Source of the DNA: Kappaphycus alvarezii
Lineage: Eukaryota; Rhodophyta; Florideophyceae; Gigartinales; Solieriaceae
Assembly: GCA_002205965.3 (NCBI GenBank)
Contig: NADL03000659.1
Span: 806,001-870,000 of the forward strand
Direction: 5' to 3'
DNA: 64,000 nt
Positions 33,644 through 57,652 of this stretch are shown here, in pieces. Position numbers and translations under genes: made by a program. Position 1 is the stretch's first letter. Every line of letters starts with the position of its first letter. The notes beneath the pieces were generated by a model that saw nothing but the letters and a program-made list of their open reading frames with translations, was not told where the DNA came from and made no database searches.

Positions 33644-36600
33644 ATGTCCAAAACAGCTTCCTCCGTCACTTTTGCAGAGCCCGCAGCTGATGCTTCTCTC
33701 AAGGCTGCCTTTACCGCCGCCCTCGCTACAACTGAGAAACGTGTCGATATTGCCAAGGCCTTTGTTGATGAAAAATGCAACGACCTTGCTTGCCTTAGCC
33801 CAGCAGCAGGTTTAACTGATGCACTCAAGAGAGTTCTTTCCACCTCTGACAAGAAGAAGGCGGCTCAGCGTGAGGTTGCCCTTCTTATTCTTGAGGGTCT
33901 CGTCGCCAAGTACGGTGCCGTGTGTGCCCCGTATGTCAGTAGCCTTCTCGCCAACTGCCTCACGCTTATGTCGGACAAGAACTCGAAAATGTCCAGAATG
34001 TCGCCGGTCGAGTCACTGTCGCTATTGTCGACTCACTCAATCCTGTTGCAAAGCGGGCTATTTGCCTCAGCATGCTTGTGGACGCTTTGAGCATTCAAGC
34101 AAAGTGGCAAACGCAGGCCGGGTCTCTTGGACTCATTTCAAAGGTTGCTGTTGACGCTCCACAGGAAATTGGCTCGTGCATGCCGGAGTTGGTGCCCGCT
34201 GTTGCCCCACTCATGTGTGAGTCAAAGACAGCCCTTTCCAATGGTTCCAAGGATGCGATGGAGAAAATGTGTGCTGGGATTGACAACCCAGATGTGAAGC
34301 CGTTGATTCCCCATCTCATGAACGCCCTTGGGAACCCTACTTCCGTCGAAGATACAATCTACAAGTTGGCGGCAACTACCTTCGTGGCCCAAGTCGAGTG
34401 CAACGCCCTCGCAATCATCGTGCCGCTTCTCAAGCGAGCCTTCCAAACTCGCTCCACTCCTCTGAAGCGTATCTCCGCGAAAATTATTACGAACATGGCC
34501 AAGCTCGTTGAGAAACCAAGTGATGTGGAGCCATTCATTCCTACTCTCATGCCCGCTCTCAAGCGCGCCGCCGAGGAGATTTCCGATCCTGAGGCTCGTT
34601 CTGTTTGTGCCGAGAGTGTTGAAATTCTGGATGGAGCCGCCAAGGGTGAGGGCATGGCGGCAGAGCCCCCTCGTGTGCAGAGAGAGACTGTGCTCAAGAC
34701 CCTAGAAGAGTGCTGCGGTCCATCAGTTGGCCCTATGTTTGAAGCTGCCCTCAACTTTATCACGGACGAGGCCACAGTACTCATTGCCAACCAGGCCCTC
34801 GAAATTGAGGAGTGGAAGGTCTGCCTCGCGCCGATCCTGGAACCATTTGTCAGCTCTGGATCCGCGGAGGATGTCGCCCAGAACATGCTTACTGCCTGTT
34901 CCAAGTACATGACGGTGGAAGAAGAAGAGGAGGAGGAAGAAGATGCCGAGGAGTTGTGCCGGTGCAAATTCTCTCTTGCCTACGGTTCAAAGGTACTCCT
35001 CAACAACACAGACCTTCGCTTGAAGAGAGGCTTCCGCTATGGGCTTTTGGGTCCGAACGAGTGTGGTAAGACTACCCTGATGCGGGCCATTGCCAACGGC
35101 CAGGTTGAAGGATTTCCTCCTCCGACCGAAGTGAAAACCGTGTTTGTTGAGGCGGATATTCTTGGAGAATTGAGTCATTTGAACATTGTCGACTATGTCT
35201 TCGCCGATGAAGCCATCAAGGCTTGCAATATTCCCAGGGAGTCAGTGCGGAATGTCCTCTCCTCCGTCGGATTTACTAAACTCATGCTCGAGGGTGCAGT
35301 GTCCTTTCTTTCGGGTGGATGGCGTATGAAGCTCGCTCTTGCTCGTGCCATGCTTCAAAATGCGGATATCCTCTTGCTTGATGAGCCGACTAATCACTTG
35401 GATGTCGTCAACGTGAAGTGGGTTGAAGACTATTTGAACGGCCTGAAGGACGTGACGAGTATTGTCGTGTCACACGACAAGGGACTTTTGAACAACGTGT
35501 GTACCCACATCATTCAGATTGAAAACCTCAAATTGAAGTTGCATAAGGGCAATTTGACGAGTTTGTGAAGAAGGTTCCAAAGGCCAAGTCCTACTTCGAA
35601 ATGAAGCAGACCAAGCTCAAGTTCAAGTTCCCGAAACCGGGTAACCTTGAGGGTATCACATCAAAGGGTAAGGCAATCATTAAGATGGACAACGTCGTAT
35701 TCACTTACCCTGGCGCACATCGGCCGCAGATCGCTGGGGTGACCATCCGTTGCTCTCTTGCGTCACGTGTCGCATGTATTGGCCCCAACGGTGCTGGGAA
35801 GTCAACAATTGTCAAGTTGTTGACAGGGAACTTGAGGCAGACTCTGGCAATGTCTGGAAGCACGCAAACGCCCGTATTGGCTACATTGCTCAGCATGCAT
35901 TCCATCACATTGAGAATCACTTGGACAAGACTCCCAACGAATACATTCGTTGGCGGTACGCGTACGGTGAAGATCGCGAGGCCCTCGTGAAGGACACGAT
36001 GCAGGTTTCCGAGGAAGAGTTGAAGAGGATGAAGACTCCCATCCAGTACGTGTGGGTGACGGATGATGGTAAGGAGCATCGGATAAACTAGTCGTTGATC
36101 GGCTTACGTCGCAGCGTCGCACGAAGAAAGGTACAAAGAGCGACTATGAATATGAAGTCAAATGGGAGGGCAAACCATCCACATGGACAGCATGGCTGTC
36201 TCTTGAAAAGCTTGAATCTCTCGGATGGCAGAAGGCCATCAAGGCTGTCGACGAAAAAGTTGCGTCACGCGCTTCTGCCCACACTATGCCGCTCACGTCT
36301 TCTAATGTCGAGAAGCACCTTGAGAATGTTGGCTTGAACCGCGAATTTGGTACGCATTCCCGCATCGGATCTTTGTCGGGTGGGCAAAAGGTGAAGGTCG
36401 CGCTGGCTGCATCCGTTTGGAACTGTCCTCATTTGATTGTTCTTGATGAGCCGACTAACTACCTGGACAGGGAATCGCTTGTGGCATTGACATACGCCAT
36501 CAAGGATTTCGAAGGAGGTGTCGTCATTATTTCTCATAATTCTGAGTTCACCCAGGAGGTGTGTCCTGAAATCTGGAACTTGACCCCGGCCACGGATACT

Positions 36601-36852
36601 GAACCGGCTAAACTGAACCTGGAGGGAGATCTGGACTGGACAAAGAACGCAGAGAAGGAAAAAATTGAGATTAAGCAAATCACCGAAACTGTTGACGCTT
36701 ATGGCAATACAGTGAAGGTGAAGGCCCGGAGGACTAAGAAGAAGATGTCTCGACAGGAAAAGAAGAAATTGGACCGCAAGCGTGCAGCCCAAAAGGCTTC
36801 TGGGGAGTACTACGAGGGAATTAATGGGACTGATTCGGAGGAAGGATATTGA
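33644..36852 (+). CDS. EF3: Translation elongation factor 3 (ABCF ATPase), with four frameshifts
   Basis: EF3 is a ribosome-bound ATPase that helps release E-site tRNA during elongation. The start is the ATG at 33644 (MSKTASSVTF), after an ACAACC context. Residues about 40-320 are HEAT-like repeats. The first ABC domain has GPNECGKTT near residue 468, LSGGWRMKLALARA near 557 and LLLDEPTNHLD. The second has GPNGAGKST near 713, a chromodomain-type insertion (YEYEVKWEGK) near 836, LSGGQKVKVALAA near 910 and IVLDEPTNYLD. A Lys/Arg-rich tail ends the protein. Corrected length is about 1070 residues, close to the fungal protein. The frame breaks near 33986-33989 (AAAA), 35558-35560, 35826-35828 (GGG) and 36085-36087 (AAA). 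Each break is repaired by one added base, and nothing else looks damaged. The usual Walker A GCGKST reads ECGKTT in the first domain. Confidence 0.95.
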
Positions 36853-39800
36853 GAGTAGTTTGTGTAGAGAGTAAACCTGCTTGGCTTTTTTTGATGCAGC
36901 ACCTGTGCACCATACCGACTTGCACGCCATATTCCACAAATAGTAGATGAAAAGCCAAATCCCCTTCAATAACATTCAGCGAGTCATTGCAGCGCAGATT
37001 TGTAAACGTCTCATGGGCCGATTTGGAGAGCAAAGATCTGTCCCACATTTTCATTTTGGGCACTGATATATATATGACCTTTATTCAACAACCCCTCGTC
37101 CGACGTCGGACTGGAACCCCGACAGCCACTTCAGAGTGGGGAAGTTTGGGTTTTTTTACGTATAGAACATTTGATCGGTTGTATCCAGGCCTCTTGGAAG
37201 TGCGTTGCGAGGGACAAGTCGTCACTTGGTAACACTCCAGATGCCCACCATGCGTGCTGACAATCGTAATAGGGGGGGGAATTGGGGTGCTGTAATGATC
37301 AGGGATGTAGGACGGCTATGTTCCGAGACTAGGGGCGGCAGGTCTGTGTATTAGAGAGTCTGAAAAGGCTTGTGTGAGGCCAGCCGTAAGGCATGTTGTG
37401 TTGTACGAAACCGTCGCCGCAGCGTGTCTTTGCGTAAGGATGGACCCAAACACGGGTTTTTCTCCAGAGTCCCCTAAGTAGTCCTGATGAGAATTACCAT
37501 GATGGTGTACTGTACTCTCTGCCAAGGCAGGGCGTCTATTTACTGCCTCCCTGTCATCCGCAACGCTCAACCGGGCATGCATCACGAGCATCTAAGCGCT
37601 CGTCACCAACGGTTGACCACATGCGAGCATCATCTGCCAGCATTCTGACTATGAACCCGTCTGGTAAAAATCTTTGGATAAGTGCCGGGGATTCTGACTA
37701 CCAGGATGTCAGCAAAGCCGTTCATGTATGTCATGGGAGGGCGCCGAAGAATCCTGGAACATGTTTGGTGTGTGGGGTTGCGGTTGCCATCGGATGCAGG
37801 GAATTACCGTGGGGAAGGGGTAGAAGAATGTAGAGGACGGTAATTACAACGAAAGAAATGCACAAGTCTTTTCGGTTGACAGCTACAGCTACCTATCTAT
37901 GGTAGTGTCGGGTTGCTATTACGGGCTCTCAGGTGGCTATTTATGGTAACCAAAGCCAAGTCTCAAGTTTGAGTTTACGAAAAGTCTCAAGATATCTGAC
38001 GACGACTGCCATTGTATACATCCTATAGGGGTAAAGGCTGAAAAATACACTTTAATTGGCCAACAAAGGGGTTAGCTGGATACTACCGTCCAGGGTAACA
38101 AATGATCGCGTGGGATGATATGGGTTGCAGGGATGCAAGCGAAACGGTTCCGGTCATGCCAGAGACCGAACGACGGAGCTGATTTTTCGGTGCAGATGGC
38201 GGAGAATAGCAGCTGGATGGATCCGGAGTACAGCAAGATGATTGTCACTTGATTTTTGAGAACTGCAGCAGTGCGTGAGGAGTGGGCACCACCAGTGTCG
38301 AAGGCCATCGGAGCAATTGCGCAACCGACGGAATATTGTGGAACAAAAACCCAGAAAATGGAGCACTTGCTCAAGTTGACGGGCGTAACTTCGCACATTG
38401 TTTGCGGCAGCAAGGTACGCAGCAGGCTGGGGGCGGAGGCCGTGCAGCGGAGGACGGAGGATATGGAGGGACTCCCTACATCTAAAACTACGATGTTACC
38501 GTGCGCACGGTATATATCGTAGCTTTGGGGGTCCATAGAAGGGTCCCTGAAGGGCCGTCGGGGCCGTCGGGGACTGAGACAAGGATGCCAGCGGGGCTAA
38601 GGGAGGTACCCCGCGTGAAAGGGTAGGCTTCCTGGCTTGAAGGGGCGGCTGGCAAGGGTATTTCAGATATGGTTGTGACGATGGACTAGTGCTGGACCCA
38701 GGGCTGCATATGGTGGCGTGTTCACCTTTGGGGTTCATGGCAAAGCGTCATCGCGGGGACTTGAGAGGGAAGTGGTCGTCAACGACGGGAAGATCCACAT
38801 TTCAGCGGGGCAGTCTTGATCAGAACGGCATAGTACGTTTCCCCTTCGCAAGACTCATAAAGGACTGAGTCCGCTCAGAACTGCAGCAGTCGGGACAATT
38901 GAGCCTTGATAAAAGTAGTCAATATAGTTGATTTCGCACCTTTTCGGCATTCTCCCTCGAACGTCACCTGCGTCAACATCGTTGAACAGGCTTGTTGGAA
39001 AATGTAAAATCCTCACACAAACTTCCGCAAGTAAACGTGAACATGTTCAGCTCGAATCTAGCCTTCCAACGGGCGCACACTTAGCCCTGCCTATATTCAG
39101 AGCGGTATTCTCCTAACCCTCCGGATTGGCTGGCCTCTTTTTGCGAACAACAGATTTTTTGTTGTCCAAAAAGCGTAAATTATTCCACATGATGCAGTTG
39201 TAGAACAACAGGATGTGCATGTACGCAGGCACAGATGGAGTCTCTAGCCCTGACTTCGACAAAAAATCAGCCGAGGTCTTTGTACTTGATGTTTCAACTA
39301 TAAGGCCAGGAAATCCAGTTGATCCTAACAATAAAATTGCTGCTGGCGGTCAAACTTGATTTCGGACAACATGCACTAGTGGGACCTGCCACACACCACT
39401 GCGTATCTCTCAATATCGACACGACCAGGATCCTTCAACCTTGAGATTCCCCTCCCTTGCTGCAGGTTGACTCGCTCTCTTTCAACTTGAATTTTGCGCT
39501 AGCCAGATTTCTAACAGCTGTTTTCCTTGGCGGTTCTCACAACCTCGTCTAATTGGTTGCTATTAATGTCAGCATATGCCGAGGAGGATACTTTAGCTAC
39601 CGAGGCATTCGCGAATCGCTTACCAAGTGCGTTGCCCTCGGATGATTCCTCCTTCCTTGCTGATGTCGACATAGTGGAATCCTAGTTCCGCGACCTCGCT
39701 TTCGAAGCAATGATCCGTTTTTGATCCAGCCTAGTGTAAGTGATATGCCATCGGGAGCGAAACGATGCTTGTACCATAAACCGAAAGTGAGACATGTGTG

Positions 39801-40016
39801 CCGAAACTTAAGAAATGCCATAGTCCACGAGTAAATTCTTCCATGCAGCATGGGGTTTGAATGGGCTCGTGCTGAATCACAGCACCTGATATAAATAGAG
39901 CTCGTGCGGACCAACATGTGAGCCTTACCGTAGACTGCAAAACGCTACCCTCAACTATATCCCGAGAATTGCAGGGCCAAGGGACACCAATCCCATCGAA
40001 AAAGAACGTCTGCACG
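36853..40016. other. 3.2-kb region without a recognisable gene
   Basis: The longest frame is 38072-38536 on the reverse strand (154 codons), overlapped by other frames on both strands, with no motif I recognise. The segment near 37265-37450 resembles the insertion in the copia left repeat at 14.2 kb. The DNA upstream of the secreted protein gene shows no clear promoter. Confidence 0.45.
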
Positions 40017-40675
40017 ATGCGTCTTCCCACCTTTTTCTACTTTTTCTTGCTTGTTTGTCTTATGTCAAGTTTCGTACGGGCCTTCGAAGGAGATTTGACG
40101 TTTTATTTTCCCGAGAGCGGTATCACGGCTTGTGGAACAAGGCACACCTCATCGGAAAACATCGCGGCCTTATCGTTCACAGACTTTCCCAACCCTGGCA
40201 ACCCAAACAACTCGCCACTATGCCAGCAATGTGCTCTGATCCGCGGTAGCAATGGGGCGTCCGCTCTTGTAAGAATCCGTGATCGGTGTGCCGGTTGCCG
40301 ACCAGGAGACATTGATGTGACGACGTCTGTGTTTCAAAGGTTTGCGCCGTTGGCGGCCGGAAGAATTAGAGTGTCATGGGACTTTGCGCCGTGCTCTGGA
40401 TCATCGCCGGGCGGGTCGAATTTCTGCGGTACATCGTTTGCAGGCGCTGGAGCGTGCCAGAATAGTTGTCCTGGGGGATTGGATGGGGAATGCCCGCCCG
40501 GTCAGCGGTGCTTCGCATCGGTCACGTGCTCAGGGTCTGGTGGGGGATCGGGTACCTCTAATTATTGTGGAAGTTCGTACCAAGCGGCGATGGCATGTCA
40601 GAGCACCTGTCCGGGAGGATTGGATGGGGAGTGCCCCCTGGACAGAGATGCTTTGCCGCCGTTCCGTGCCCGTAG
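40017..40675 (+). CDS. Secreted double-psi beta-barrel (expansin/RlpA-like) protein with Cys-rich repeats
   Basis: The ATG at 40017 is preferred over the in-frame one at 39918 because it gives a clear signal peptide (MRLPTFFYFFLLVCLMSSF). The mature part begins GDLTFYFPESGITACG and carries a barrel domain with CALIRG, VRIRDRCAGC and GDIDVTTSVFQRFAP, the pattern of expansin N-domains and RlpA-like proteins. Two Cys-rich modules follow (FCGTSFAGAGACQNSCPGGL, then YCGSSYQAAMACQSTCPGGL), joined by Gly/Ser linkers. They resemble short modules seen in secreted carbohydrate-related proteins of algae. A wall-loosening or wall-binding role is inferred. As written, the second module breaks at a run of five C (40634-40638). 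One more C completes it as CFAAVPCP and moves the stop to 40673-40675. Confidence 0.8.
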
Positions 40676-40760
40676 AGAGGTGTTACTCTGCTTGCAGAAT
40701 TATTAACACAATGCATCCTTCTGTAGCTATTTGAATTGCAAAAGTACTGTAGTTGGGGGT

Positions 40761-40902
40761 AAACAAGCGCTTACATATCGTAGCAAGCTGACAAAAGCCT
40801 GAGATCTACATTGATGCGTGATCTGTCGCTCAAACAAGCGCTTACATATCGTAGCAAGCTGACAAAAGCCTGAGATCTACATTGATGCGTGATCTGTCGC
40901 TC
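40761..40902. repeat. Perfect 71-bp tandem duplication
   Basis: Bases 40761-40831 are followed directly by an identical 71-bp copy at 40832-40902. The repeat lies just downstream of the secreted-protein gene and has no coding potential. Exact identity implies a recent duplication or an assembly artefact. Confidence 0.95.
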
Positions 40903-42377
40903 ACACTGCGGTCAGCTTGCGGACCGGGAACCCTAAGACAGGCTTCAAGCACTGTATGGCAGCAGTAACCATGTGTAGGTATCATTACTCTGTACCACGA
41001 GGAGAGTGACAAACGGCCCCGAGCTACAGGTGCGCAGTGCGGTGATGAAGAGGCATCATACTAACAAGTATGTCATCCCATCGGTAAGTATAGGCATCTT
41101 GAGATTTATAGGGCGTGAAGGATTGCCCACTCCAGCGGAAGGGAAAGTATGGAATATTTAATCAAACTGATATGAAACGATGCAGTGGCGTCGCGCCCGT
41201 GTGTGATGCTTCTGGAGGGCCTTGCTCTACCGAGTTACAGAATTACCTTCATTGATTACCTGCATTGATGTATGCGTTTTTGAGGACCACTGACTTGGCA
41301 TTTGTGTAATAGCACACAACACAACTTCGTTATGTTTCAATCCATCTCATCTCGACTGACTACACTCAACCTTCACTTCATCTCGCTCGGCGCCCGCGCA
41401 TGGCGTGGGCGCCGGACTTTCATCCGGTTCTTCCCTCAGGAGATTGCCCGTCACGGCTGCAGAGCTCTCGCTCCAACGTTCTTGTCGATGGCCACATCGA
41501 GTGGATTGCCTCTCCGCGCCCCCAGTGCACGTGGACGAGCTGGGAAAGGTGTATAAGGACGGCCCTACTACTCGAACAAGGTTTGCGAAGTCCACCGTAC
41601 CCTGCCGCGCTCAAATCCACCGTCATTTTGACGGACTGCGAGGGGTTGCGGTCTTCACAGCCTTGCGGGCTTGTCGTCAAGCTCGCTCGTCCAGAGTTCT
41701 CGCCGTTGTCGTCGCCGTCTCTATCAGTAAGCCTATGTGCTTACAGCGGGAGTTTTTTAAGCCTCCTGAATCCTCGGTTCAGGTGGTGGAGTTTTCTTCC
41801 GGTCCCCTTCTCGCTTAAGTGGGCAATTGGTTTAGCCATTGCCCGGAGTCGTCCGTCTAGCCGAACCCAAGGTCCTGTGTAGTTCCGACTTGTCCTCAAA
41901 CAATAAAGCGTCATTCTTCTTCTTCTTTTTCATAGCTTTCACTTTACTAGAGTTAACTGAGTCTACATAACGTCTGTTTGCTGATGCTTGCTTTGTAGTT
42001 CGGTAGAGACGAGACTTATGAACCGAACCCCATAAAACCTGAATCACCACAATCGTTTTGAACCAAACCATTGAATTCTTTTTGAACTTCTTAGCCTGAA
42101 CCTCAACTTTGCTCTGAACAATATCACATATCGAATTATCAATCAATCCAGAACTTGACCAACTCCCTATCTTCACATTTGCCCATGACTTTATATAGAA
42201 ATAAATAATCGACCGAGCCAGCGGGAGGAATTTACATTGCATCGGAAATGTTCGCGATGGACCACTGTATATAAGTATTGCCACAACGGTTGAGAGAAGA
42301 GCGAGAAAGAGAGAGTCGAGAGATCAAAAACAGGACAACATGGAATGTGACGTAATGAAAATTCTAGGTATTATTTG
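40903..42377. other. 1.5-kb region without a recognised gene
   Basis: GC-richer DNA at 41380-41880 is open in two forward frames (41400-41882 and 41405-41818) and partly in reverse, which is what GC-rich non-coding DNA gives. No motif is recognised in any of them. The flanks are plain AT-rich DNA. Confidence 0.4.
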
Positions 42378-42487
42378 GCATGCTGCGCTGGATGAGCTTG
42401 CATGCTGCGCTGGCTGAGCTGGCATGCTGAGCTGGTTTAGCTGGCATGCGGCGCTGGCTGAGCTTGCATGCTGTGCTGGCTGCGCTG
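42378..42487. repeat. Five-copy 22-bp minisatellite
   Basis: Units start at 42378, 42400, 42422, 42444 and 42466, each with GCATGC at the start and an imperfect GCGCTGG-TGAGCT core. Because 22 is not a multiple of three, the reverse frame through it cycles through Gln/Pro/Ala/Ser-rich reading phases. Confidence 0.9.
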
Positions 42488-42708
42488 TCACTGTAATTAC
42501 AATTTTATTTTCAATTATTTTTAGAGGGATTCTTTGCATCGTACTGTGGCGGTGCAGATATGGCACATGGGTACTGTATAGGTGCTGCAAACTGTGAATG
42601 TTGAAAACTCTATATAAGGGACTGTTTGCACGAAATGATAGGAGTACTTGTGAGCCAGCATACCAAAGCGGGGCGCTCAACATATGAAGTCACACGCAAA
42701 GCATAAAG

Positions 42709-42990
42709 CAAGTTGGCAGAAAACTTCAAGCCCAGTCCCAAATAGTTAGGAAGTTGAGAGTCAGCTTCAGACTCAAGAAGCATTTATTTTAAGGTAATGA
42801 CTGAGCATAGGTGGTAGACCCTGCCCCTTTTATACTCAACCATCGCCCTAGAACTGTCGTCCTCATCCACCTCCTTTGGTTCTCACAACTGTACCACAGT
42901 AGCACTTTTGTCGCTTGCAACGCCTTTTTCTTGGGCTAATTGGTTCTGAGAATCTCTTTCCGTGCCGATTTATCCCTATCAGAATGCGCC
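42709..42990 (+). repeat. Dispersed repeat, copy 1 (inverted copy at 62.1-62.4 kb)
   Basis: It begins AGCAAGTTGGCAGA and contains CCCAGTCCCAAATAGTTAGG, AAGCATTTATTTTA, AGGTGGTAGACCCTGCCCCT, then GCTTGCAA, TTGGTTCTGAG and GATTTATCCCTATCAG. The same words occur in reverse complement and reverse order at 62113-62393. The copies are diverged by small gaps. A short LTR-type element is possible, because one copy carries a TTTATACT-like box, but no gene is inside. Confidence 0.8.
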
Positions 42991-43423
42991 GGTCATATTT
43001 ATCAAACGTCTCGTTTACCACAAAAGATATGCCTACTGACTCATTGAGCGAAGAGATCCAGTATGGTTCGGAATTACGATACGTAAGTAACTGAGTACAA
43101 GCTATGGGATCGCGAAATTACCCTTATAATCGACATAGTACACATTTTTTCTAGGGGAGGGTAATAATAAGAAATAGTAGCAGTAATTTTGTGTAGAACG
43201 TATTACGTCTGGCACTTTTTTTTGATTAGTTGAGGCTTGATTGATGAGTTTGATAGATTTATTTTGAGAGGATGACGAGTTTAGCAGAGATAGCTATCTT
43301 AAATACTAATTTGTAAACAAACATTCCACAAAAGCTTAGTCAAGCTACGACTACGGATTATGAAATCGGGAATTGCAGAAAAATATGTGTAATCAGAGTT
43401 GGCCTAGTATGCGGTACTACGAT

Positions 43424-43900
43424 TAGTTCCGAGTCATAGATTTGGCCTTCTGCGGAACAGTCGGGGACCGGTAGTATGGACAAAGACAGTTGGTTATCAG
43501 CAGTCGTGCATCTATGTTAGGTAGAGCCGGCCCGGTGTAGTACACACTAAATAAGTCCGAGCTATGTTTCGCATTCGGAGCAACAGTCAGGGCCGGTAGG
43601 ATCTGCAACGACTGCTGCCTATAGTTTCATGTGTCTACGATAGGTAGGGCCGGCCCCGTGAACTGGATAGTTCCGACTTTGTGCTTCCTGAAAACAACAG
43701 TCGCGAGCCAGTGAATAGATACCGACGATTGCTTGCCAGTTGTTGCCCGTTCTAGATGAAATAGCGCAGGCACAGTTTAGGATACCATTGAAAGGAAAAG
43801 GTATGGTATCGCCTTCGAAGAAACAGCTAGAAGACGGTAAGAAACATAACGACTTCTGGTTGGCGCGAGTCGTTTCTACACAGTAATACTGCACATTTGT
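43424..43900 (-). repeat. Diverged tandem repeat, units of about 115-130 bp
   Basis: Units begin with TAGTTCCGA-type words at 43424, 43552 and 43668, with a weaker fourth unit from about 43790. Shared marks within units are GGAACAGTC-like, GGTAG and GGTAG-GCCGGCCC. On the reverse strand the units encode parallel phrases (ARDCCFQEAQS, GPDCCSECET, VPDCSAEGQ), so the array may descend from a repeated coding region, now broken by stops. No family is recognised. Confidence 0.65.
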
Positions 43901-44736
43901 GGTTTCAACTTAATACAATATGCGTACTAAAGTCAAGGATCAAGATGAGCTCTGTACAGAACGTGAGAAAATAGCAGCCAATCAAAGTGCGAAAGAATTC
44001 CCAACGGTGAAGGCAGCATGCGTACTGTAATTACAGTAGTAGGTTACACTATATGCTTACAGTTTATAATCGCCCAAACCGTTGCCGCCGTGGGGGCTGC
44101 CACGGTCGTTAGAAAGTACTGTATAAATACCCCGCCGCCGGGTGACGCTACCACCGCCCCAGGCTCCAAGACACAGAGGGTTTATTGTTCTAGATCTACG
44201 AGTAAAGTAGCTGGAACTCTCCGAAGTTTGTTCAGCTCGGCCCCATCTATCTTTCCCGTCTACACTATCTTTCCCGCGCGCCCTCCCTTTTCTACTGTCA
44301 AACCTTTACGAGAATCTATTCAACGTTGTGATTGTACAGTTTGAGTCTCGCGTCTGTGCAAGAGCGAATAAGCGACATGTGCTAACCCCAGCATATATTT
44401 GTAGTGCATTATTACAGGCCAAAGTTATGCCAAGTGGTACATGTAGCAAGTTTAGTGGTGGAATTCTACTGTAAGCCCTATGAGCACAGATTACAATATC
44501 TGAGAAAACTACTAATCGTTGTATTCGACGGTTTGGCTTCCCCTTATTGCTACAAGAAGAAGTGTTCTCCCTTCTGATGGCTGATTATTCTTGTCTTAGA
44601 CTTGTTCCATTCGTCGGTACGCAATCCTGTATACAGACTATTTTAGCCCCTCTGCACTGTATATACAAGTACAGTACAGTGAAATGTAAAATTAGGCTAC
44701 TATAGAAAATAAAATTACTAGCCATAGTAGCGATTT

Positions 44737-44850
44737 GTACTCAATTAATATTACAAAAAATGCCTGGGCATTCTTGCTGAGCTGTAATAGGTATGTGCTG
44801 CGCTGGAACTACCAACTATATGCTTGCTGCGCTGGCACCATCATAAAACC
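44737..44850 (+). repeat. Dispersed repeat, copy 2 (first copy at 12.57 kb)
   Basis: It matches 12573-12690 in order and orientation (ATTAATATTAC, CTGGGCA, TGAGCTGTAA, TGCTGCGCTGG, GCACCATCA). It has an extra TGCTGCGCTGG unit compared with the first copy. Confidence 0.6.
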
Positions 44851-44879
44851 TTTCTACATAGCGATAAGAAGTCAGTGCA

Positions 44880-45765: not shown

Positions 45766-48245
45766 TGGGCCCAGAGGGCACCTAATTTCTCGTTGACAGG
45801 CTCTTTTAAGCACCGATATTAACTATGTATTAAAAAACTTCCATTTCTGAGCAGGTGTGAGCGTTTGGATGCGGCTCGTAAGCGTATCTGCTAGCGGTTT
45901 TGGCCATGATATACATGCCGCAATTGACAATAAATAACGCAGATTGTTAGACATAGAGATGAAAGATGGCAGGATGGACTTACAAGTTGAAGAAGAAGAC
46001 GATTTCATGACGTTCGATCAATAAGAGAACGCTGTAGACACTTTTTTGCAGACTTTAGCAAAAAGATTACCCCACTGACACAGCAAAGTGTATTATCACA
46101 CTTGGACGGAAATTGTTGAACTGTAAAAGATTCAAGAATGAAAACTACACCGTATTCACAGAACGCTTAAGGAGCGTAGCAAAATTACACGTGGCTAAAT
46201 CACATATGAATTGCTTCCGCTACGCATCTACATAGCGAAGGAAGAGACACACGTTCCTTGATGTATATGTTGGGATGAATCTTGCAGAGCTGTCGGTAGG
46301 TCGTTTGAGGCTTATACGTGATGTTTTATTAAGGTTGTCCCGCACCAATTTCAAGGCGTACGACTAACGCAGAATCGTTTCCGACAATTTCAAAGCTAAA
46401 TTGGCGAATGGTGTTGTTAATATAAAGTTTTGTGACATCTTGCACACCAGCGACCGGTTTTGCGTCGAAGAACCCGTTACTCTATCCATATTAGTATGGG
46501 AGTTCGGGAGGGGATATCATAAGTTCCATCTTCAATAAGTCACATAGATGTGCAGCATTCTTGATGCCCCCAGTTTATCTCAGTGAGCCTGCATCATATA
46601 ATGGGTTAGGATCTAGCTTCGTGCTCAGTTTGCGAAGCATCGTATGTGTTGTGTGATATTAACTTTTTTGTGCTGGGGTTGTCCATCATAGCTGAGTTCA
46701 TGATGTCGAGCGCCGAATCTAACGCTTTTGTCCTGTCTGGAGTCAGTCTTGTGGCTGCTTTTATTTACCTCGTTACGCAAATCCGATGTAGTGCAAGTGA
46801 TGCTTGATGACTTTGAAATCCTTGTGTCTCTATGACCCTTCCCGTAGTACGTATATTCTAGGTCTCCAGCCCAGTAGTTAGGTCCGTTGCAATCCAAACA
46901 TCTGTATTTAGTTGTAGCGCCCATTCCATGTGTGACATAATCATTTACATTATCTTAGTGGCGACTGCTGGCTAACATCGTCCCAATTTTGTTCGTGACT
47001 GCGATATTCTCACAAGCACGATATTGCCTTTTGCCGTTTGGTCGCTGGAATTTACGCGTTTTAGCGCTGATATTGCGTCTTTTAGACCGATGTTCAGATT
47101 TATGCAGTCCTACTGGTCTCCCTTATTCGTTATTATCTCTGCTGTCTTAAGGAATGGCTCTATTTAAATTAGTTTGCGTTACTTTTTTTGCTACGAGTAG
47201 AATCAGGATGCTAGCATAAAGGGAGTCTGGTAGGTATTCATTATTCAATATTATCAAGGCCGTATGTCTGCATTTGCAGTTATGCATTCCTCAACACACA
47301 TAAAATAACGTTCAAATATAAACGTAATCACAGCCAAAATAAGAAAGGCATCATTGGGAGTAAGATACAGAGTGTCAAAGCTATCATCACCTATATCGAC
47401 AAGGAGACTTCATGATGTGACGCCGTCAACACGCTTAGGAATGGGATCTTTCTCTCTAATTAATTCTCCGGATCTTCGGCGTGTCGGTCATTTCAGCTGT
47501 ACGTACATATCAGCATTCTATATGAGGGCTACCAGCTAGCTTCGTGCCACAGACGCTTCTCGATTCTCGTATCAACTAATGTGCAACGCGAGATTTACAA
47601 AGAGCACTGCGCTTTCGAGTAAGCAATACATAGTACAAAGCAAAATAAAACTATGTGGGCCTTGTCTGGGTATGGTATGCCTTCATCAAAGGTAACGAAC
47701 ATGAAGAGTGGGTCAAAGCAGTAATTTTCGAACCGCACCACCACTATATAGAAGATTGGCGCCTGAGGAAGGGCTCTAAAGCGTGGGATCTGGTAAATAA
47801 AACAGCATACGGGGACGTGCTATTGGCATCTCATTCCGAGTTGTTACAGTAGCTAATGCGTTGTTCCATGGAAACAGAACTGGGCTATTTGGTGGGCATA
47901 GAGGGGGAGAAGAGTGAGATATAGCAGTAATATACAGTCCATCAAACAGAAATAGCCCTACTTCGTCACAAATACCAAGTGACACGACAAAATAAACCAT
48001 CGATATTGGTATAGCAATAGCGAATGGGCCGATCAATTATAGGCTACTGAATAACTAAGCACTCAGGGACATTGACTCAGGGACATTGACTCAATGACTA
48101 CAGACGTAAAAAGATTACCAAAGAGATGCAGATGCTCCAATCAGATAGACTGAGGGTACTTGGCGAAGTATAAGAAAAAATGGGATCGAAGTTGGTCACC
48201 ACAGAAGTTTTATGTTCTCACCTCCATGGATTATGGACGAAAAAA
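45766..48245. other. 2.5-kb region, mostly without genes, with one zinc-knuckle-like frame
   Basis: The DNA is AT-rich with short frames only. The reverse frame 46625-46924 is listed separately. The forward frame 47655-47852 (65 codons) has no recognisable motif. A directly repeated TCAGGGACATTGAC occurs at about 48062-48090. Confidence 0.4.
46625..46924 (-). pseudogene. Possible gag remnant with zinc-knuckle-like start
   Basis: A 99-codon reverse frame begins MGATTKYRCLDCNGPNYWAG, which resembles the first half of a retroelement zinc knuckle (C-x2-C followed by an aromatic residue and Gly), but the His and last Cys are not in place. The rest is rich in Ser, Lys and His. Copia pieces nearby at 48.2 and 49.2-50.3 kb make a retroelement origin plausible. 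This is weak evidence. Confidence 0.25.
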
Positions 48246-48518
48246 TTTGAAACAGAATATGAGGAAAATTGAGGCATAGCATTCAAAGAGGTTAATGAGG
48301 ACGAGATACCAGCAGACGCAATCAAGATACGATCGTGCATGGTTTATGAAGTGAGAACAGATGAAGAGGGATCTCAAATGAAGATAACTAGACTATTCTC
48401 TCATCGAAATGAAGAAAATTACAAAGAAAGAATCGGAAAAGACTCTGGAAAATACAACTTTGCATCTTCAGGCTTACGCCAGCACCTAACACGGTACTCG
48501 TATTTGAATTCCGTTTAG
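48246..48518 (+). pseudogene. N-terminal fragment of a copia reverse transcriptase
   Basis: Frame 48273-48515, open between a TGA at 48270 and a TAG at 48516, reads IAFKEVNEDEIPADAIKIR, MVYEVRTDEEGS, then ITRLFSHRNEENYKERIGK and SGLRQHL. This matches the N-terminal pattern of copia reverse transcriptases: a short helix, a V-x3-E-IP block, an R-x-V-x-EVK block, a KxRLVxxG-type block, then the SxRLL block. Flanking sequence gives no continuation, so this is an isolated fragment. The call rests on remembered family patterns. Confidence 0.5.
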
Positions 48519-49177
48519 CAGAGTTGGGAAACTGGCCTTTAATTTTCGAGCGCTCATGCTGTCTCTTCTACAGTATAGACGTGCTGTCCTGTCCGGAGAC
48601 ACATGTATTTGCAACATTTTAGATCCACGTGTAGGACCATGGCAATTATATATATCCCTTTAATCATCCCATTGCTCTAGTAATTAATGTAGGACTAATT
48701 AGCAAATATTGCCACAATAGGTGGCACCGTGACTACTTAGGGTCTTAAAACCCTAGGTCAACCCTCAGTAAACCTATAAAAAAATCCCCAAGCAAGTCTC
48801 CGACCACCATCACTGAGGACTATAGTAGTCTGAGTGCAGTTAGTCTAGACTTTGCCTAGTTTTTGTGACCGGCGAGCCTAGCGCTTCACAGGATCAATGT
48901 GCGTCCGGTGTTTCCACCACAGTCCCTAGTAGACAAACCCCGAGTTCGGAGCAGTCACGATCGTCGGTGACCAGAGTATTCACCTACTTGTTACTAACCC
49001 GTTACGGAGTTTATTGAAGTAGCATCACCTAACCTATCTAACCTATCTAACCTTCTCTTTTTACTATTTTACCCCTTTCTTTCTTCCAAGATCACACCCG
49101 CGGTTCACCTTGAGGATCGTAGAGCATCCTCCAAGACTAAGAGGCGCGCTCTACGGTCGCTCTACGCTGATGCGTAG
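48519..49177. other. Gene-free stretch, possibly LTR-derived
   Basis: No gene. From about 48690 the DNA has LTR-like traits: a CTATAAAAAAA box at 48774, a directly repeated ACCTATCTA at about 49030-49045, and a position beside a truncated gag-protease. No second copy was found in the window. Two small hairpins lie at about 49110-49155 and 49162-49177 (CTACGC-TGAT-GCGTAG). Confidence 0.35.
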
Positions 49178-50316
49178 CTAGACTAGTCTCTCGAAGAAGC
49201 TAACGCTTCTAATACCTCCCATAGGTGAGTGGCTGTTCCAAACCATGTGGTCAGATGCTCCTGAGTCGAGCAAAAAGGCATTCGAATTGACACTATTTTC
49301 CACAGTTGTCACGGAAAATCCTGGTTTCCCACTCCCGAAGTAACGCCCCTTGAGATTTTTCGCCCCACAATCGCACATGGCGGCTAACAATTGTGCATGG
49401 TTCGCATCTTAATTGTATGTCGCCTTACTCTCCTCATTACGATGCCCATGCTCATATTTCATCGGGCAACGTCGGGCAATATGCCCCTTCTTGTTGCACC
49501 GAAAACATCTTCGGTTCTCATCACTAGATCGATTCTCGTAGCTTCCTTTGTAGTTGCGAGTTCTCCTACCACCTGCAGCGAGAGCTTGCTCTGGATCTGA
49601 AGCTTCGGCAAGCTTCAGTCCGTCTTTTCCTCCTGCTGACGATGAATGATCGTCATACTCCTGGATTAATGTTGCTGTAACCGATTCCCAATCCAGTTTG
49701 TCTCTGCGCGTCTGGAGAGATGCAATGACTGCTCCAAAACGGGAACTTTGTTTGTCCTTTAATGATGAAACGAACATTGCAACCTGCAGATCCTCTTCAA
49801 CAGAGCTCCCAGTGGCCGCCAATCTGTTAAAAACTTCCTCAAACCCGTCCACCTAGTCCTGCATGGGCTCGATACGGTAGCTCATGCGAGAATCGCGGTA
49901 CTGCATTTGAACCTGCGTAGCTGTGTTTGAAACTAAGTGGCAGTCCTTCAGTCGGGTCCACATCTTGTAGGGGTTGTGCTTTACGGACAAACAAAGCCGA
50001 AGCAGGGATCTCTAAGACCTTGCATGATGATAGCACGCGCTGCAGAAACCTTCTTGACCGCAATATCACTCAGAGTGATCTTCTCTGAACCTCCTTCCTT
50101 CAGCAAATCGTTGATAACAGCATGAAGGACCCCTTTCGCCTGCAACGCCGCTTCAGTCCTTGCCAACCAAAGTTGAAAGTCCTCGCCGTACTTCCCACCA
50201 AACTTGTAAACTTTCTTGGAATCCTCCACAACCAAAGCAACAAAACGAAACAAAAAGGATACAACAGGCGAAAGAAACGATAGACCGAGACTACAGGAAA
50301 ATTTGAAGGAAAACAC
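49178..50316 (-). pseudogene. Copia gag-protease fragment, broken
   Basis: On the reverse strand, gag begins near 50250 with VYKFGGKYGEDFQLWLARTE and continues through frame changes to FEEVFNRLAATGS and SSLKDKQSSRFGAVIASLQ. A standard zinc knuckle CFRCNKKGHIARRC follows at about 49470. Next comes the classic copia protease signature FLLDSGASDHMVW at about 49250-49290. An in-frame TAG separates MQD from VDGFEEV at 49853-49855, and at least two frameshifts occur. The element stops shortly after the protease, so integrase and polymerase are missing. It differs from the copia element at 14-20 kb (DSGAS instead of DTGAP), so a second copia lineage is present. Confidence 0.85.
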
Positions 50317-50959
50317 AGGGGATCAATCGTTACAGGATATGGCGATAGTCTGGGCCCATAACCACTTGCAAATTGAGAGGAGGACTGCCCGCTTAGCCTC
50401 TTTCGTTTTACTCCAGCAGGCTAGATGCATTCTTAAGTACGCTAAAAATCCCACATCCTTCAAGTAAGGACTCTACGGGTTTCCTCCGAGCGTTACTGCT
50501 GTCCACAGATGTGGCTCCCGTACTTGGAAGTTGCTGTCCCAGCCACACAGATCACAATTATCTTCCGCCCAAAGTTATCCCATCCACAAATGGATGCAGT
50601 AGGCCTTGCTTCCGCTTTTGCCCATGCGACCCAGCCCCGATCAACAACAAAGGTTCAGTCGGTGGGGGTCTTTGGTCCACTGATCTTGACTCGACCATCC
50701 AAGCACAATTACTGACTGGAATTTCGGGGTCAGCTGGTTACGATATACCAAGTAATTTTAACTACCCAGGTGCGTTTCGTACATACTGTAACGATCAAAT
50801 GACTCATACAAAATCCTAGACAAGATGTCAAGAGTCGCATCATAGTCTCTCGAGATGCAACTCATCTATTTACGTTCAATCATAAGAATCCAATCAGCAA
50901 TAGTTCGGAAGGTACTCAATTTCAAGTAAATTCCCCCTGGAAAATGTGGGCGACATCAC
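50317..50959. other. Gene-poor spacer with one Cys-rich frame
   Basis: A forward frame at 50511-50819 (102 codons, starting MAPVLGSCCPSHTDHNYLP) contains several Cys early and a Gly/Ser/Asn-rich end. It has no recognisable domain, and a second overlapping frame (50509-50715) is also open. A recognisable LTR for the neighbouring gag was looked for and not found. Confidence 0.35.
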
Positions 50960-52080
50960 AGGCGGGCCCTCCCTACTCCTACATCTGTGGTACTTGACGA
51001 TGGGTATATACTGTAGTTGGCACCCATGAAGCCATTCGAACGGAACTACAGTTCCTCTCCTCCCCGGAGGTGCGCAGTTTGGGTGTAGACCTCCGCATCG
51101 ATAAGTGTGCCCGCCGGTGGCCAACCATCCCGACCCTAACTGGTCAGCAGTTTCTCCCATATGAGCTTCGGCAGAACTATGACGACGGGACAAAAGTGCT
51201 CCGCATTCCCATCGCGTCGGACCTAATCATGGAGCGCGAGTTCACAACGCACGTCACTTCGTTACAGCCTCTCCTCAAATCCCTCTTAACCCCGGAGGAT
51301 ACTCATGTAGCTCTCCACCTACTGCGGACCTGCTTTGGTGTATGTCGGATCAACTACCTCTTACGTGTAGTCCTCTCTAGTTCCACTCTCAAGGGAGCTG
51401 CTGAATTAGACACTACTGTTGAAGACAGGCTGCGGCGGATGGTGGGCGGGGTTCTGGACGCCGACACTTTTCGGGAATCACGACTTCCTATTGCGCGCTT
51501 TGAGCCCGCAAGCGAACATTTGGCATCGGGCTCCGCTCTGCTAAGCTGAATGCGGCGGCTGCCTTCCTTTCCTTCGTGTCCCTCACATGTGCCCTGTGCT
51601 CTACCCTTCTCCCTGTGCTACCGAACACTGCTCTCCAATCTTACACATCCGCAGTTCGGGCTCATGACGAGTGGAGGAGCAAGTGGAACCCGAGAAGGTT
51701 GTCCAGTTCACGGTTATAGACTCAAGGCAGCGGTTTGGGCAAGGGCAACTCGCTCGCCGATTTGAGTAAAAGGCCTTTGACGCTGTGCAAAAGGGGGATG
51801 AGAGGACCGCGGCATTCGGAGCCTCGTTGTCAGTGGATGGTTGCAAGGACTGGCTTTCATGCCAACCGGCTCTAGGCCTGAGCACCTACATCTCGGGCCG
51901 CAATTATAAGACGTGGTTGCAGTTTCAGGGCACCACTGCATCCTCCCGCTTCAAAATGCCACAAGGGGAAATGCCTTGGGCACGACTCGCAAGAACGGTT
52001 GTTTGTCGCAGACCTCTCCCAAGCCACCCGGCACCCTGCCCTCGAGCCCACGGCGTCGGTGAGAGCAATTCCGTATAGCG
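50960..52080 (+). pseudogene. Non-LTR-like reverse transcriptase fragment, copy B
   Basis: The catalytic box survives as LHLWYL followed, after a one-base shift, by DDGYI at about 50981-51009. The adjacent frame then gives VGTHEAIRTELQFLSS, LGVDLRIDKCARRWPTIP, KVLRIPIASD and HLLRTCFGVCRINYLLR. A later piece (SCQPALGLSTYI, about 51858) matches the domain before the C-terminal Cys/His block. It belongs to the same family as copies A and C (LNxxKxxxxWP-type block, LGxPI-type block). The finger domain and C-terminus are absent and frames shift repeatedly. Confidence 0.75.
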
Positions 52081-52739
52081 CCTGGTAGCAAGACTTATTT
52101 TGAGCGTCGAAGGCATCCGCAGCGGGGACTGGCGTTGCGGATGATCGACAGGCTGATATGCAGAGATGCGTAAAAGTAACTGCAGTATTATTTTTTTTAA
52201 GAAAATTGTCCAAATACCCATGTCATCAATTGATTACATCAATGTAATCAGATGACATTGGTCTTGTCGAATAGACACTAGTTGTGTAACACCTCCTAAA
52301 TATTGACAAGGTCTATTTCGATTCTCGCTAAGATTTATAAATTTAGAGCAAACAAAGCACCCTGTCCATGGAAACAACTGCTATCCCGGGTGGAGATGTT
52401 ATCGTGTAGTCGACAGCATAATGAAGTTGTGAATCAACCTCCGCTGATGTCGGCCCTTATTTCAGCCAAAATAGAACACAGTCGACACGTGGAACATATA
52501 GCAGCATTCAGCCAGGCTTTGACTGGAGATTAATTGCTACTCCTAAAATAGGAATAATTAGAGCGGCAAAGCAGTTCGAAGCACTCGATAAGACGGGTAC
52601 AAAACAGATCGGCATTAAAAAGCAAATAGACAGAGCATAAAAGCAAGAACTGCCACTAGACACGCGGATCAGAGATCAGCGGAGCAAGAGAAATACAACG
52701 ATCTGTGACAAGAACGCGTAAATGTGAAGGCAGCATGTG

Positions 52740-53185
52740 CACTCTCTTCGGCATCTAATGTTAGCACTCAACAGAGAGCATGAAATGAACAACATCGAAC
52801 TCATAAATTTCCGAAAATTCATACGCAAGCAATCGCGCGAACTGAACAGGTTACGGGCAACGACAGTGAAATCAGGCAAAGTAGACAACCAGAGCATGTG
52901 ACTGTGGTAGGCACGCGACTATCAGCAGAATTTAATGTCAGCACAGCAGACAGGCAGCGATAAGCGCACAACACAGGAGCCGAGACAAGTAGCATGCGAC
53001 ACTAGCGAAGCGAACAAGAGCAAAGTTAGCGCAGCAATAGCATATAAAGGATTTAGTAGTGGTCTGATCCTCAAGCAAGAGAACAACCACCTGCAACTTG
53101 TGACGAATCTACTTGCATCGCTACCCGAAGCGACTTGAGCCCTTAGCATCAACCAGCTTTACAATACTTTTACATTACGCATATT
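52740..53185 (+). repeat. LTR-like dispersed repeat, copy 2
   Basis: The partner of 44880-45765, in the same orientation about 7.5 kb away. It lacks the 450-bp block present in copy 1 and keeps the ATATAAAGGAT box at about 53042. The DNA between the copies contains unrelated pieces on both strands, so the two are not obviously the ends of one element. Confidence 0.7.
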
Positions 53186-54211
53186 CAGAACAGCAAAGAA
53201 TTGTTAGGATGGATTGTGTGTCCATCGTACTGTGAAGTGTACGAATTCCACCTGGGTGAAGTTCAATATCTGTAATTTTCGATATGTTTAGTTCAAATTG
53301 TGTCTGGCTGGTGTGACTTCGGCTAAAAGCGAATCGGATGTTTCACTGAGGGGCCAGTACAGTAGATGCTGCGACGAATCACATCTACAGTTAGTGCTGG
53401 GCGTAGTGTGGTATTGTACTGTACAGTACTGTACAGTACTGTACAGTACGGGGGATAAACTCGTTCAGTAGTCGAAATCATCTGACTGTTCAGTTTGGAA
53501 CAGTACCGAGTTCTGGAATTCCACTCTTACAGGTGGCTCACAAGCATACTGTACAGTACATTGCTGGACAAGAAGCTACATTGCATTTTGGATACTGTAC
53601 ACAAAAGTATAGAACATATTTCAAAAGTGTAGAAATAGAAACAACAGTTCGGATTGGCAGCAACATTGTAGCTATTTCATTGCGGTCTCATACTATTACG
53701 GTAGTCTTTGGGTTCAATTCTCCACTGTCAGTTCTTGCGCTTATCTGTGCCCGCTGCTTGCGTGGATTCTTAAAGCAAACACGCTACCGTCTGTAAGCTA
53801 ACACCCACTCACCTCCCCAGTTGAACATTTGGCCTTATTTCAGGAATGACATTACAGTACTTTCCAAATATTGAATTACCCAAATCTTTCCCCGCTACAG
53901 CAATGTAGTCTACGTCACACAAACATGACCGCAAAAAAGTAATATGAAATGTCACCAGTTTATTGCAAAAGCTGGGATTTTTGAATAGTATACACTAACG
54001 TAATTGGTGGAAACTTCGAGGTCCGCCCACCCCACGATTTGCCCCTAAAGCTCGAGACTTACAGAACACGTTTCTTCCCTCTTGTACAGTATGTATATAA
54101 AGCGTTGTCTGCGCTGCGGCAACGTCTCTGCTCTTTGTTATCACAACTTCGTTATAAACACCTGCGCCGGACTCACGTCTCACAACCTCAGCTTACCACA
54201 ACACTCTTGTC
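53186..54211. other. Gene-free stretch upstream of the proline-rich gene
   Basis: It holds the palindromic array at 53411-53450 and single copies of the same word near 53550 and 53595. Frame 53533-53796 (87 codons, forward) has no motif. Near 54083-54100 the sequence GTATGTATATAAAG provides a plausible TATA box about 115 bp before the next gene's start. Confidence 0.5.
53411..53450. repeat. Tandem array of self-complementary GTACAGTACT
   Basis: Almost four consecutive 10-bp units of GTACAGTACT. The array is its own reverse complement, so it can fold back or extrude a cruciform. Single copies of the same word are scattered through the window. Confidence 0.95.
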
Positions 54212-54857
54212 ATGTCCCACAACCAGCATCCTCCCCGGCTTCACGCCACCTACACCCCGAACCCAGCAGCCCCACCAACCCCGCAACACCCGTCCTCCCC
54301 AGTACCATTCATCCCCGTACTCCCAACAACCCGCGCCTCCTGGCTACCCCACCTCCTACTCCCACCCCCGAACACCGCCCCGGACTATCCCACTGCACCG
54401 CCGCCGCCAGGTTACCCCCCGCAGTCCACTTCCCCTTACCACCACTCCGCACCACCGACCGCACCTCCACTCCCGCCTCATGACATCAACCCACCTCCAC
54501 CCCGCCTCACGACATCCCCCACCGCCCCCAACAAATGCACCGTACCCTTACAACCCTGCTCCACCCAACAACCCGTATCCTACCGCTCCAGGGCCACAGC
54601 CCACATGGGGAGCTCCGGCCTCGTCTGCATCGTCGAAACCGTTGAAGAATCTTCAGGGCTTGCTCGCCGCAGGTGGCAAGAAAAAATTGAAGAAGAAAAA
54701 GGGTCTTGGTAAGGGCTTGGCCTTGGGCGCCGCTGCATTGTTTGGCGGACACCTGGTCGGTGAAGCATTCGAGGACGCCTTTGACAATGATTACGATGGC
54801 GGTTTCGGAGGCGATTTCGGCGGCGATTTCGGCGGCGATTTTGGCGGTTGCGAGTAG
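54212..54857 (+). CDS. Proline-rich protein with glycine-zipper C-terminus, frameshifted at C runs
   Basis: The most coherent reading starts at ATG 54212 (MSHNQHPP) and hops between frames at C runs: 54233-54236, 54365-54369, 54500-54503 and 54516-54520. Adding C at these runs gives a smooth protein of about 216 residues. The N-terminal two thirds is rich in Pro, Tyr and Ser, with QQPAPPGYPTSY, APPPPGYPPQSTSPY and a PPHDI motif occurring twice. The C-terminal part is in one clean frame: KNLQGLLAAGGKKKLKKKKG, then GLGKGLALGAAALFGGHLVG (a glycine-zipper-like hydrophobic stretch), then an acidic tail with three GGDF repeats and a final Cys. This layout resembles plant and algal Pro/Gly-rich membrane-associated proteins. 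The function is unknown. The start and frame path are inferred. Confidence 0.65.
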
Positions 54858-56510
54858 CTATGTTTCAGATTCGTGTACTGCAGACATCGTCCGAAAGCGC
54901 GGTTGTCGACTGTGCTGTTTGTTTGCCTTTTGACTTTGCTGTTGATGTAGCTGTGTTGGATGTGTAAAATTCAACTATTTCTGTGATTTTGGCACACGCA
55001 AAAAGTAAACTCTACCTAACTATTACTTAACAGGGCTCTCAACCATCACACCATTCAGTAAACCAAGAACGTTCGTTCTCCCCACTCTCCCTCATCACGC
55101 AACGAAACCACTGCAGAGCTTCCTCAACATTTCGCCGCTTCCGGCGCCCACCCCGCGCGACATGTCGTCGGGTGCGGGCGCGCCCACTTCCTCCCGTCTA
55201 GCCCGTTGCCCATGCAGATCAACACACCGCGACTGCTGCGCACTCGTTGCACCGATCTCGTCGACATCCTTGTCGACAGTACCGCCACCTCTCGCCCCGG
55301 AGCACGTTGGACGAACCGGGAATGGCGCGCAAAGATGGCGTTGCTTTTTGAACGGCGCTGTAAGACGGCGCTGTATGGTTTTCGTCAAGGTCGCCCGTCC
55401 GCGTTGCAGCTTGTCGCCGTCGCATCCTTCTGGGTGGTTTTTAATGGCACGCGAAGGAGCCTGTTTTTTCAAGCCGTGGGTGCCCTGTTCGGCAGGCTAC
55501 TTTCGGTGGGATTTTTTCCGGCTCCTCTCTCCTTTGTTTCACTTGTCCTCCCCACTCCCTGCAGTACTCAATACTAACAAGTCTGCGGTGAACCCTCCGT
55601 GTCTACCGAAACCCTCTCGCACGTCACTAATCGGTGAATAGCAGACTCTATCATCTACGGAAGCCGCCCCTATTATATTCAACCCCAAAGGCGTCCATGG
55701 GCAGGGGTCAAATGGGCGCGCGGTTGAGATTACTACGAGCACGGGATAGCCATGGATTTTTTCTGTGCAGGGTCTATACTTCACCTTGCTGGTGATGTAG
55801 TGATAGTGGCGGATGAGTGTTTTCCTTAAAACTAACCTATACCAACCCATTCAAGTAAACCACCCTATTTACACCAAAAACGTTCCCCCTAACTCTTCTG
55901 ATTTTTTTTGAAGTATACAACCGAGAGTAGTTTTTAATGCTACAAGTGTGACCTAGCGTGATGCTTGCCACGTTGTGAATTCCTAAAATGAGATTGTGCA
56001 TCCCTGTTCGTGCGTGGGGTTAAGCGCTGGGATCACCTAGTGAAGATTCATGATTGTCCTGAATCTTCTCAACTAGTCTTCGCACTAAAAGCATCCCTCA
56101 TCTCGTAATGCAGAGTTTCTCCCGCAAAACTGGAAAAACCCTGTCCTATGATCACTTGGCCTTAAAGGTTGGAGGCTGTAGTGAGCGAAAAACTACAAAT
56201 CACACTCCCCTTCCTAGTTGTTTTGCTTGCCTAGCTCAACCCAGATTTCCGTCGGTTATAGGAGGTTTCGACGCGGAGTTGGTACGGCTAGCGAAGTAGA
56301 AACTATTCTGTACAACATGCCCTTCGAGAAGCAATAGAGAGATTACGAAATAGAAATTCACTCGGCAAAGCACTGTAAAATGATACACGTGGTGCTCTCA
56401 TTATTATCTACAAAATTTTCCGAATAGCATATTACGAAATCCACGTGATTTGAGTAAATGAGTATGATGACGGCGAGCCCTTGCGCTAGTACTCCGCTGC
56501 ACTCAGCAGC
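54858..56510. other. 1.65-kb region without a recognised gene
   Basis: GC-rich DNA at 55110-55640 is open in two forward and two reverse frames at once, which argues against coding. One frame (55206-55577) has some protein-like phrases but no motif. The rest, to the Harbinger element, shows no terminal inverted repeat that I could pair with the right side. Confidence 0.4.
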
Positions 56511-57652
56511 ATGCGCCAGAAGGACTACTCGATCGGAAAGGCCAGGCAACGTCTTCGCTCCAGAAGACGGCGATTCCTTCTGGCGCTCGAATGCGATGCG
56601 GACGTGCAACTTCTACTTCGCACTAGTCAGTCCGCAGCTAGAGCGCGACGCGATGTCGGACACATTCGGCTGAGATCGCGACACATATCCACCATGCGCT
56701 TCAACCTTAACGCGTACAGTGAAGAGCAGTCGCTCTCTGAGTTTCGCTTTCGCAAGTCCGAACTTGGTACCGTGTGCGGCGTGTTGTCCTGGGGTGGAGG
56801 GCCAACAGCTCGGTCAGTCTACAGTTGCGAGGCTATTACAGCGACGTGTATCGTTCTGAAGCGCTTGTCCTTTCCTACAAGGTGGCGGGACCTGGAAACT
56901 GTGTTTGGAATGCGTGCTTCTGCGCTTTGTGAGGTATTTTGGGAGGTGGTGGAGGGTTTTATTGCGACAAGGGGAAGTCTCATCTAAACCTTTCGTTCAG
57001 ACTTGATGCACGAAAGGGCCCCGCTCTACGCCGCGCCATCTACGAGAAAGGGGCCCCTTTAGATAACTGTGCTGGATTTATCGACTGTACGAAGATACAG
57101 ATGAGTAGATCCGGTGGGAGAGGAAGCCTACAGCGTGCTTGTTACTCGGGACACAAAAGATTCCATTGCCTCATCTATCAGACGGTGACGACTCCCGATG
57201 GACTGATGTTCCACCTGTACGGTCCGGGGGTAGGACGCCGTCACGACATGACGCTATATTGTCAAAGCGGCATGGATCAGCAACTGCAATCTACAGTGGT
57301 GATAGGTGGACGACAGTATTGCCTGTACGGTGATCCCGCGTACATACTCCGAGCATGGCTTCAGGTTGCCTACGATCGAGCTTCGGCGACTGCTGAACAG
57401 CTGGTCTATAACAAAGGCATGAGATCTGTACTGGAGGCGGTCGAGTGGGCGTACAAGGACCTGAAACAAATCTGGTCCTCGCAGAACTACAAGCGTATGT
57501 TGCGGGTACGAAAGAGTCCAATTGCGTTGCTCTACAAGGCTGCAGCCTTGCTATGGAACGTTAGAGTCTGTCTACATCATGGCAGTGGGCAGACCAGTAG
57601 CTTTTTCTCATGTCCCCCACCTAGTTTGTCGCGCTATCTGATTATGCCGTAA
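56511..57652 (+). pseudogene. PIF/Harbinger-type DDE transposase with one frameshift
   Basis: The N-terminal part carries LSEFRFRKSELGTVCGVLSW and LKRLSFPTRWRDLETVFGM, the usual helical lead-in of Harbinger nucleases. The nuclease domain follows with GFIDCTKIQMSRSGG (first Asp), QRACYSGHKRFHCLIYQTVT, PDGLMFHLYGPGVGRRHD, LYGDPAY (second Asp) and AVEWAYKDLKQIWS (Glu). All three catalytic acids are therefore present. The first frame ends at a TAA just after a GGGG run at 56971-56974. One more G joins it to the second frame with a continuous protein. Apart from that break it looks intact, unlike its partner gene. The start codon is uncertain. Confidence 0.85.

Follow-up and report, generated by a model that had tools for sequence, protein, structure and literature searches.

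False deletions that fragment genes are an established feature of long-read assemblies, as described in the relevant parts of PMC12007338. The errors reported there are mostly false deletions, break the frames of many conserved genes and are patchy, and in all of this they resemble what we found in the red-algal DNA analyzed here. They differ in being strongly tied to homopolymers and in coming from bacterial nanopore data, whereas here runs of three or more account for only 14 of the 51 missing bases. Two of the genes concerned also have known relatives. The elongation-factor gene, EF3, resembles eEF3 of yeast (YEF3, New1) in having HEAT domains, two ABC domains, a chromodomain-like stretch in the second of these and a charged tail, and differs from it by a glutamate in place of a glycine in its first Walker A motif; eEF3 orthologs in red algae have already been reported, as cited in the part of PMC11378755 that concerns them. 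The other gene belongs to an element that an earlier note on this DNA named Harbinger. Like Harbinger (PIF-like) DDE transposons, it has a DDE_Tnp_4 match and at least 19 near-identical copies, but comparison with five sister copies shows that the copy studied here has been inactivated, by a stop codon and the lack of one base.

The window, that is, the whole 64,000-nucleotide stretch that was analyzed, corresponds to positions 806001-870000 of contig C655 in an assembly of 336,021,096 bases and 884 contigs. The following features are considered:

33644-36852, plus strand: EF3 (eEF3) gene, split into five pieces by four frame changes of one missing base each, placed by homology and open frames
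33970-33991, plus strand: EF3 frame change 1, placed where pieces 1 and 2 overlap in their HEAT_EF3_N matches
35547-35565, plus strand: EF3 frame change 2, placed by homology
35826-35843, plus strand: EF3 frame change 3, placed by homology and sequence
36073-36091, plus strand: EF3 frame change 4, placed where pieces 4 and 5 overlap in their open frames (by homology alone, about 36044-36091)
39876-40706, plus strand: open frame of a secreted, DPBB-like, Cys-rich repeat protein (the barrel protein), with a frame change near 40634
50928-52284, plus strand: dispersed repeat copy, used as a non-genic control, with 1 private one-base gap and 27 private substitutions against 14 other copies
53985-54857, plus strand: proline-rich gene, frame 0 open throughout
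56490-57652, plus strand: Harbinger-like DDE transposase copy, with TAA at 56985-56987 and one base fewer near 57034 than in five sister copies

Scans of the window for tRNA genes and Rfam families gave no matches, and neither did a Pfam scan of 20 further window frames. The window also contains an inverted repeat (19397-19841 and 20058-20502; 445-nt arms, 4 mismatches, no gaps, 216 nt between the arms) with relatives at 14036-14815. On the minus strand, at 62558-63313, two acidic open frames lie in one frame, split by a single TAA at 62894-62896 that could be a true protein end or a nonsense change.

The EF3 gene extends from an ATG at 33644 to a stop codon ending at 36852, and its pieces occupy frames 2-1-0-2-1 (start modulo 3). 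Pieces 2 to 5 gave in-register matches to yeast EF3 or New1 in the PDB. Piece 1 matched nothing in the PDB, and its sole match was the Pfam model of the EF3 N-terminal HEAT region (E = 5.7e-05, below the cut-off). Together the pieces supply HEAT and two ABC domains in the order typical of EF3. The four breaks proposed in the earlier note are indeed present in the written sequence, and frame arithmetic bore out their shared direction, one base being too few at 4 of 4. Away from the junctions, none of the 1,063 codons counted is an in-frame stop. The statement that the flanking protein shows no other decay is nearly right for EF3, except that the Walker A motif of NBD1 (about 35050-35080) reads GPNECGKTT against GPNGCGKST in yeast. 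This glutamate is a substitution that a dropped base does not explain, and it counts against an artefact. The second Walker A motif is normal (GPNGAGKST), and the remaining ABC motifs are all intact. Protein and DNA searches of the alga's own genome returned this gene as the only full match and found no second copy.

The barrel protein has a DPBB_1 match (E = 2.2e-05, 25 bits) below the cut-off of 28.8. It contains one full occurrence of the motif CPGGLDGECPPGQRCFA, and a second Cys-rich repeat is interrupted at about 40634 and resumes in another frame until the stop, so that the gene's own repeat supports the one break claimed there. Just after this gene, at 40762-40906, a 71-nt unit is tandemly duplicated. 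The breaks claimed for the proline-rich gene could not be demonstrated: there is no stop in frame 0 from 53985 to 54857, further frames are also open, and no family match was obtained. DNA searches of the alga's own genome found no second copy of either the barrel gene or the proline-rich gene.

The transposase (DDE_Tnp_4, E = 6.5e-18) could be compared with relatives, as a search of the alga's own genome gave at least 19 further copies that match the full query at 96-98%, and five of the 19 listed were cut out as sister copies. The GGGG at 56971, at which the break had been placed, is the same in 5 of 5 sister copies as in the window and is therefore correctly written. The gene is broken instead by a stop-making substitution, TAA at 56985-56987 where all five sisters have GAA, and by a base missing at a doublet near 57034. 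Three of the sisters (L077, L078, and L079) are open for 387 codons, and in L080 and L081 the frame from the same start stops at codon 44 and codon 12, with long open frames of 392 and 374 aa. Because the nonsense substitution and the missing base occur in a copy with 17 private substitutions, the break points to decay, at least in part, rather than to a slip at the run. In the window copy at least one nonsense substitution looks real, so that this is ordinary transposon decay, whether or not a base has also been lost. It also illustrates a trap of placing frameshifts by eye, in that two changes 50 nt apart mimicked one slip at a run.

Because EF3 has no second copy, we examined essential genes elsewhere in the assembly. 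The chaperonin family PF00118 has 59 matches in the genome, and many of its loci are split into two to six abutting pieces. Twenty of these loci were fetched, 16 of which form eight near-identical pairs on different contigs, as would uncollapsed haplotypes. Two of the pairs lie on contigs C585 and C447, where they are about 951 and 967 kb apart; these contigs (loci L034, L047, L048, and L053) resemble two haplotypes of one region, one error-poor and the other error-rich. Substitutions and one-base gaps in the eight pairs numbered 27/3, 46/10, 48/1, 64/7, 40/4, 24/9, 53/10, and 0/7, and the 67 gap events comprised 51 of one base, 9 of two bases, and 7 longer ones. The pair L048/L053 is decisive for base loss by the assembly: over 2,064 columns it shows 0 mismatches and 7 one-base gaps, all of the bases being absent from L053, the broken copy. 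Indels unaccompanied by matching substitutions were thus found between copies, elsewhere in the genome than EF3. Both copies are broken in three pairs (L038/L041, L039/L052, and L045/L049). Five pairs have one intact member, and measured against it the broken copies are short of 23 bases and carry 5 additional ones (p = 0.0009).

Loss also prevails at junctions outside the window, where frame arithmetic showed 33 of 42 to be short by one base and the remaining 9 to have either one base too many or two too few; 5 junctions with gaps over 60 nt were set apart from this count. One base is missing at 23 of 30 junctions in CCT genes, at 9 of 10 in HSP70 genes (the HSP70 locus on C120, with seven TGA, entered 2 of its 5 pieces), and at 1 of 2 in phycobilisome linkers (PF00427, with 17 matches over 15 contigs in a profile search of the alga's own genome). 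Among eukaryotes this linker family indicates a red alga; the control genome that gave matches was a cyanobacterium. The locus on C36 is opposite in direction, with 4 of 5 junctions +1, and counts against an artefact; the chaperonin copy there, L051 (C36:358300-360400), stands apart from the other loci in that most of its frame changes add a base. The loss is patchy, in that one-base gaps are uneven among the 16 loci (p = 2e-4) and some frames are long and whole, such as the 2,724 aa open in a GCN1-like match. The gap density of EF3, 1.25 per kb, is below those of L053 (3.39) and L043 (4.31). About 10 kb from EF3, a protein with a CS domain and Sel1 repeats (21710-23491) is open for up to 593 aa without a break, which counts against an artefact. 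The two window repeats that could be compared with their copies carry far more private substitutions than gaps (27 to 1 in the dispersed repeat and 17 to 1 in the transposase). Taken by themselves, these repeats do not show a raised error rate inside the window, again counting against an artefact.

The sequence context of the loss departs in part from what had been proposed. Among the 51 missing bases, the run length was 1 in 20, 2 in 17, 3 in 7, 4 in 5, and five or more in 2, against 27.9, 15.6, 4.9, 2.0, and 0.6 expected from base composition. Runs of three or more therefore hold 14 of 51, against 14.6% expected (one-sided p = 0.012), although gap placement beside mismatches may shift some gaps off runs and this share could be an underestimate. 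The excess comes largely from one copy, L053, with 5 of 7 missing bases in such runs (p = 0.001) against 9 of 44 in the other loci (p = 0.18). Runs are favored, clearly in one locus, yet most losses lie elsewhere. Of the proposal that the assembly under-counts homopolymers, base loss itself stands, being seen directly in paired copies and mostly involving one missing base, and the homopolymer part holds only in part. Clustering of the breaks at runs was not shown: 71% of 20-nt pieces taken at random from EF3 touch a run of at least three bases, and a run near each break is therefore expected. Uniform homopolymer compression was likewise unsupported, the run-length spectrum of the window being normal and some long frames being intact; the normal spectrum also counts against an artefact.

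Could shortened runs alone, with every break at a run, nevertheless account for the pattern? The relevant parts of PMC12007338 tie deletions in long-read assemblies to homopolymers, L053, the cleanest copy, fits this well, and the pairs with an intact partner have 9 of 23 missing bases in runs (p = 0.0035). We nonetheless consider it improbable, as 37 of the 51 missing bases fall on single bases or doublets, the excess outside L053 is non-significant, and long runs are not depleted in the window. Moreover, the base missing at EF3 site 3 may be the third base of any glycine codon, and the GGGG at 56971, the only named run testable by sister copies, is correctly written. Programmed ribosomal frameshifting or other recoding, which the earlier note had raised as its rival, would agree with the single direction of all four EF3 changes, but it is scarcely credible, because gaps also occur outside coding sequence and the standard zero-frame slippery heptamer, X XXY YYZ, is absent from the six junctions tested. 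When the count is restricted to bases that the broken copies in five pairs lack, there are 8 gaps in 2,498 bases outside coding sequence and 15 in 8,307 bases within it; the dispersed repeat has 28 private one-base gaps in 14 copies, and the partner copies of five chaperonin genes are open without any shift.

That EF3 is instead a real, recent pseudogene, with four one-base deletions and a damaged first ATPase site, is very unlikely, although the gene is single-copy, no intact copy was seen, and its Walker A glycine has become a glutamate. The one viral relative that we found, a single locus in a second scan of viral contigs, keeps the glycine (GQNGTGKTT); a first scan of these contigs gave none, and a tblastn search matched 261 phage records, none over more than 80% of the query, and the 20 matches listed were either ABC-F-like or without annotation. 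The sequence GPNEAGKST occurs in some SbcC/YhaN-type ATPases, and a glutamate at this position therefore need not abolish function. The clean pair L048/L053, unlike EF3, shows no substitution errors. Against decay stand the intact other ABC motifs, the same kind of breaks in essential chaperonins of this assembly, and the lack of stops in 1,063 codons. At the ratio observed in in-window repeats (207 mismatches to 9 gap openings, summed over 8 of 11 repeat pairs), four real indels should be accompanied by about 92 substitutions and by 3.7 stops (P = 0.026). The chaperonin pairs, whose ratio is inflated by errors, predict 0.9 stops, and with them the test is silent (P = 0.39).

Base loss in other genes of this assembly, together with its direction, patchiness, and context, is directly observed. 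For EF3 and the barrel gene the case rests on analogy, because neither has a second copy, and these breaks are very probably consensus errors of a long-read-type red-algal assembly. We infer both the long reads and the haplotype pairing: such an assembly would keep the two haplotypes of the alga mostly apart, and its poorly corrected patches and contigs would drop single bases at many types of position, with a mild preference for short runs. If EF3 and the barrel gene share this cause with the other genes, as we presume, both would be intact in the organism.

The finding as a whole is best read as an ordinary data artefact to which homopolymer runs contribute only in part, and one of its examples is an ordinary decayed transposon. 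In this assembly, essential genes (EF3, CCT subunits, HSP70) could be mistaken for pseudogenes or the pattern taken for recoding, and paired copies offer a simple internal test without reads, namely indels without substitutions. There is only a slim chance that the alga's only eEF3 is truly decaying, or functions with a glutamate in the P-loop of its first ATPase site; if so, a red-algal lineage would have been caught losing or rewiring eEF3. The broken genes of the window are probably, in their majority, intact in the living alga, their apparent breaks arising from patchy single-base loss in the assembly.
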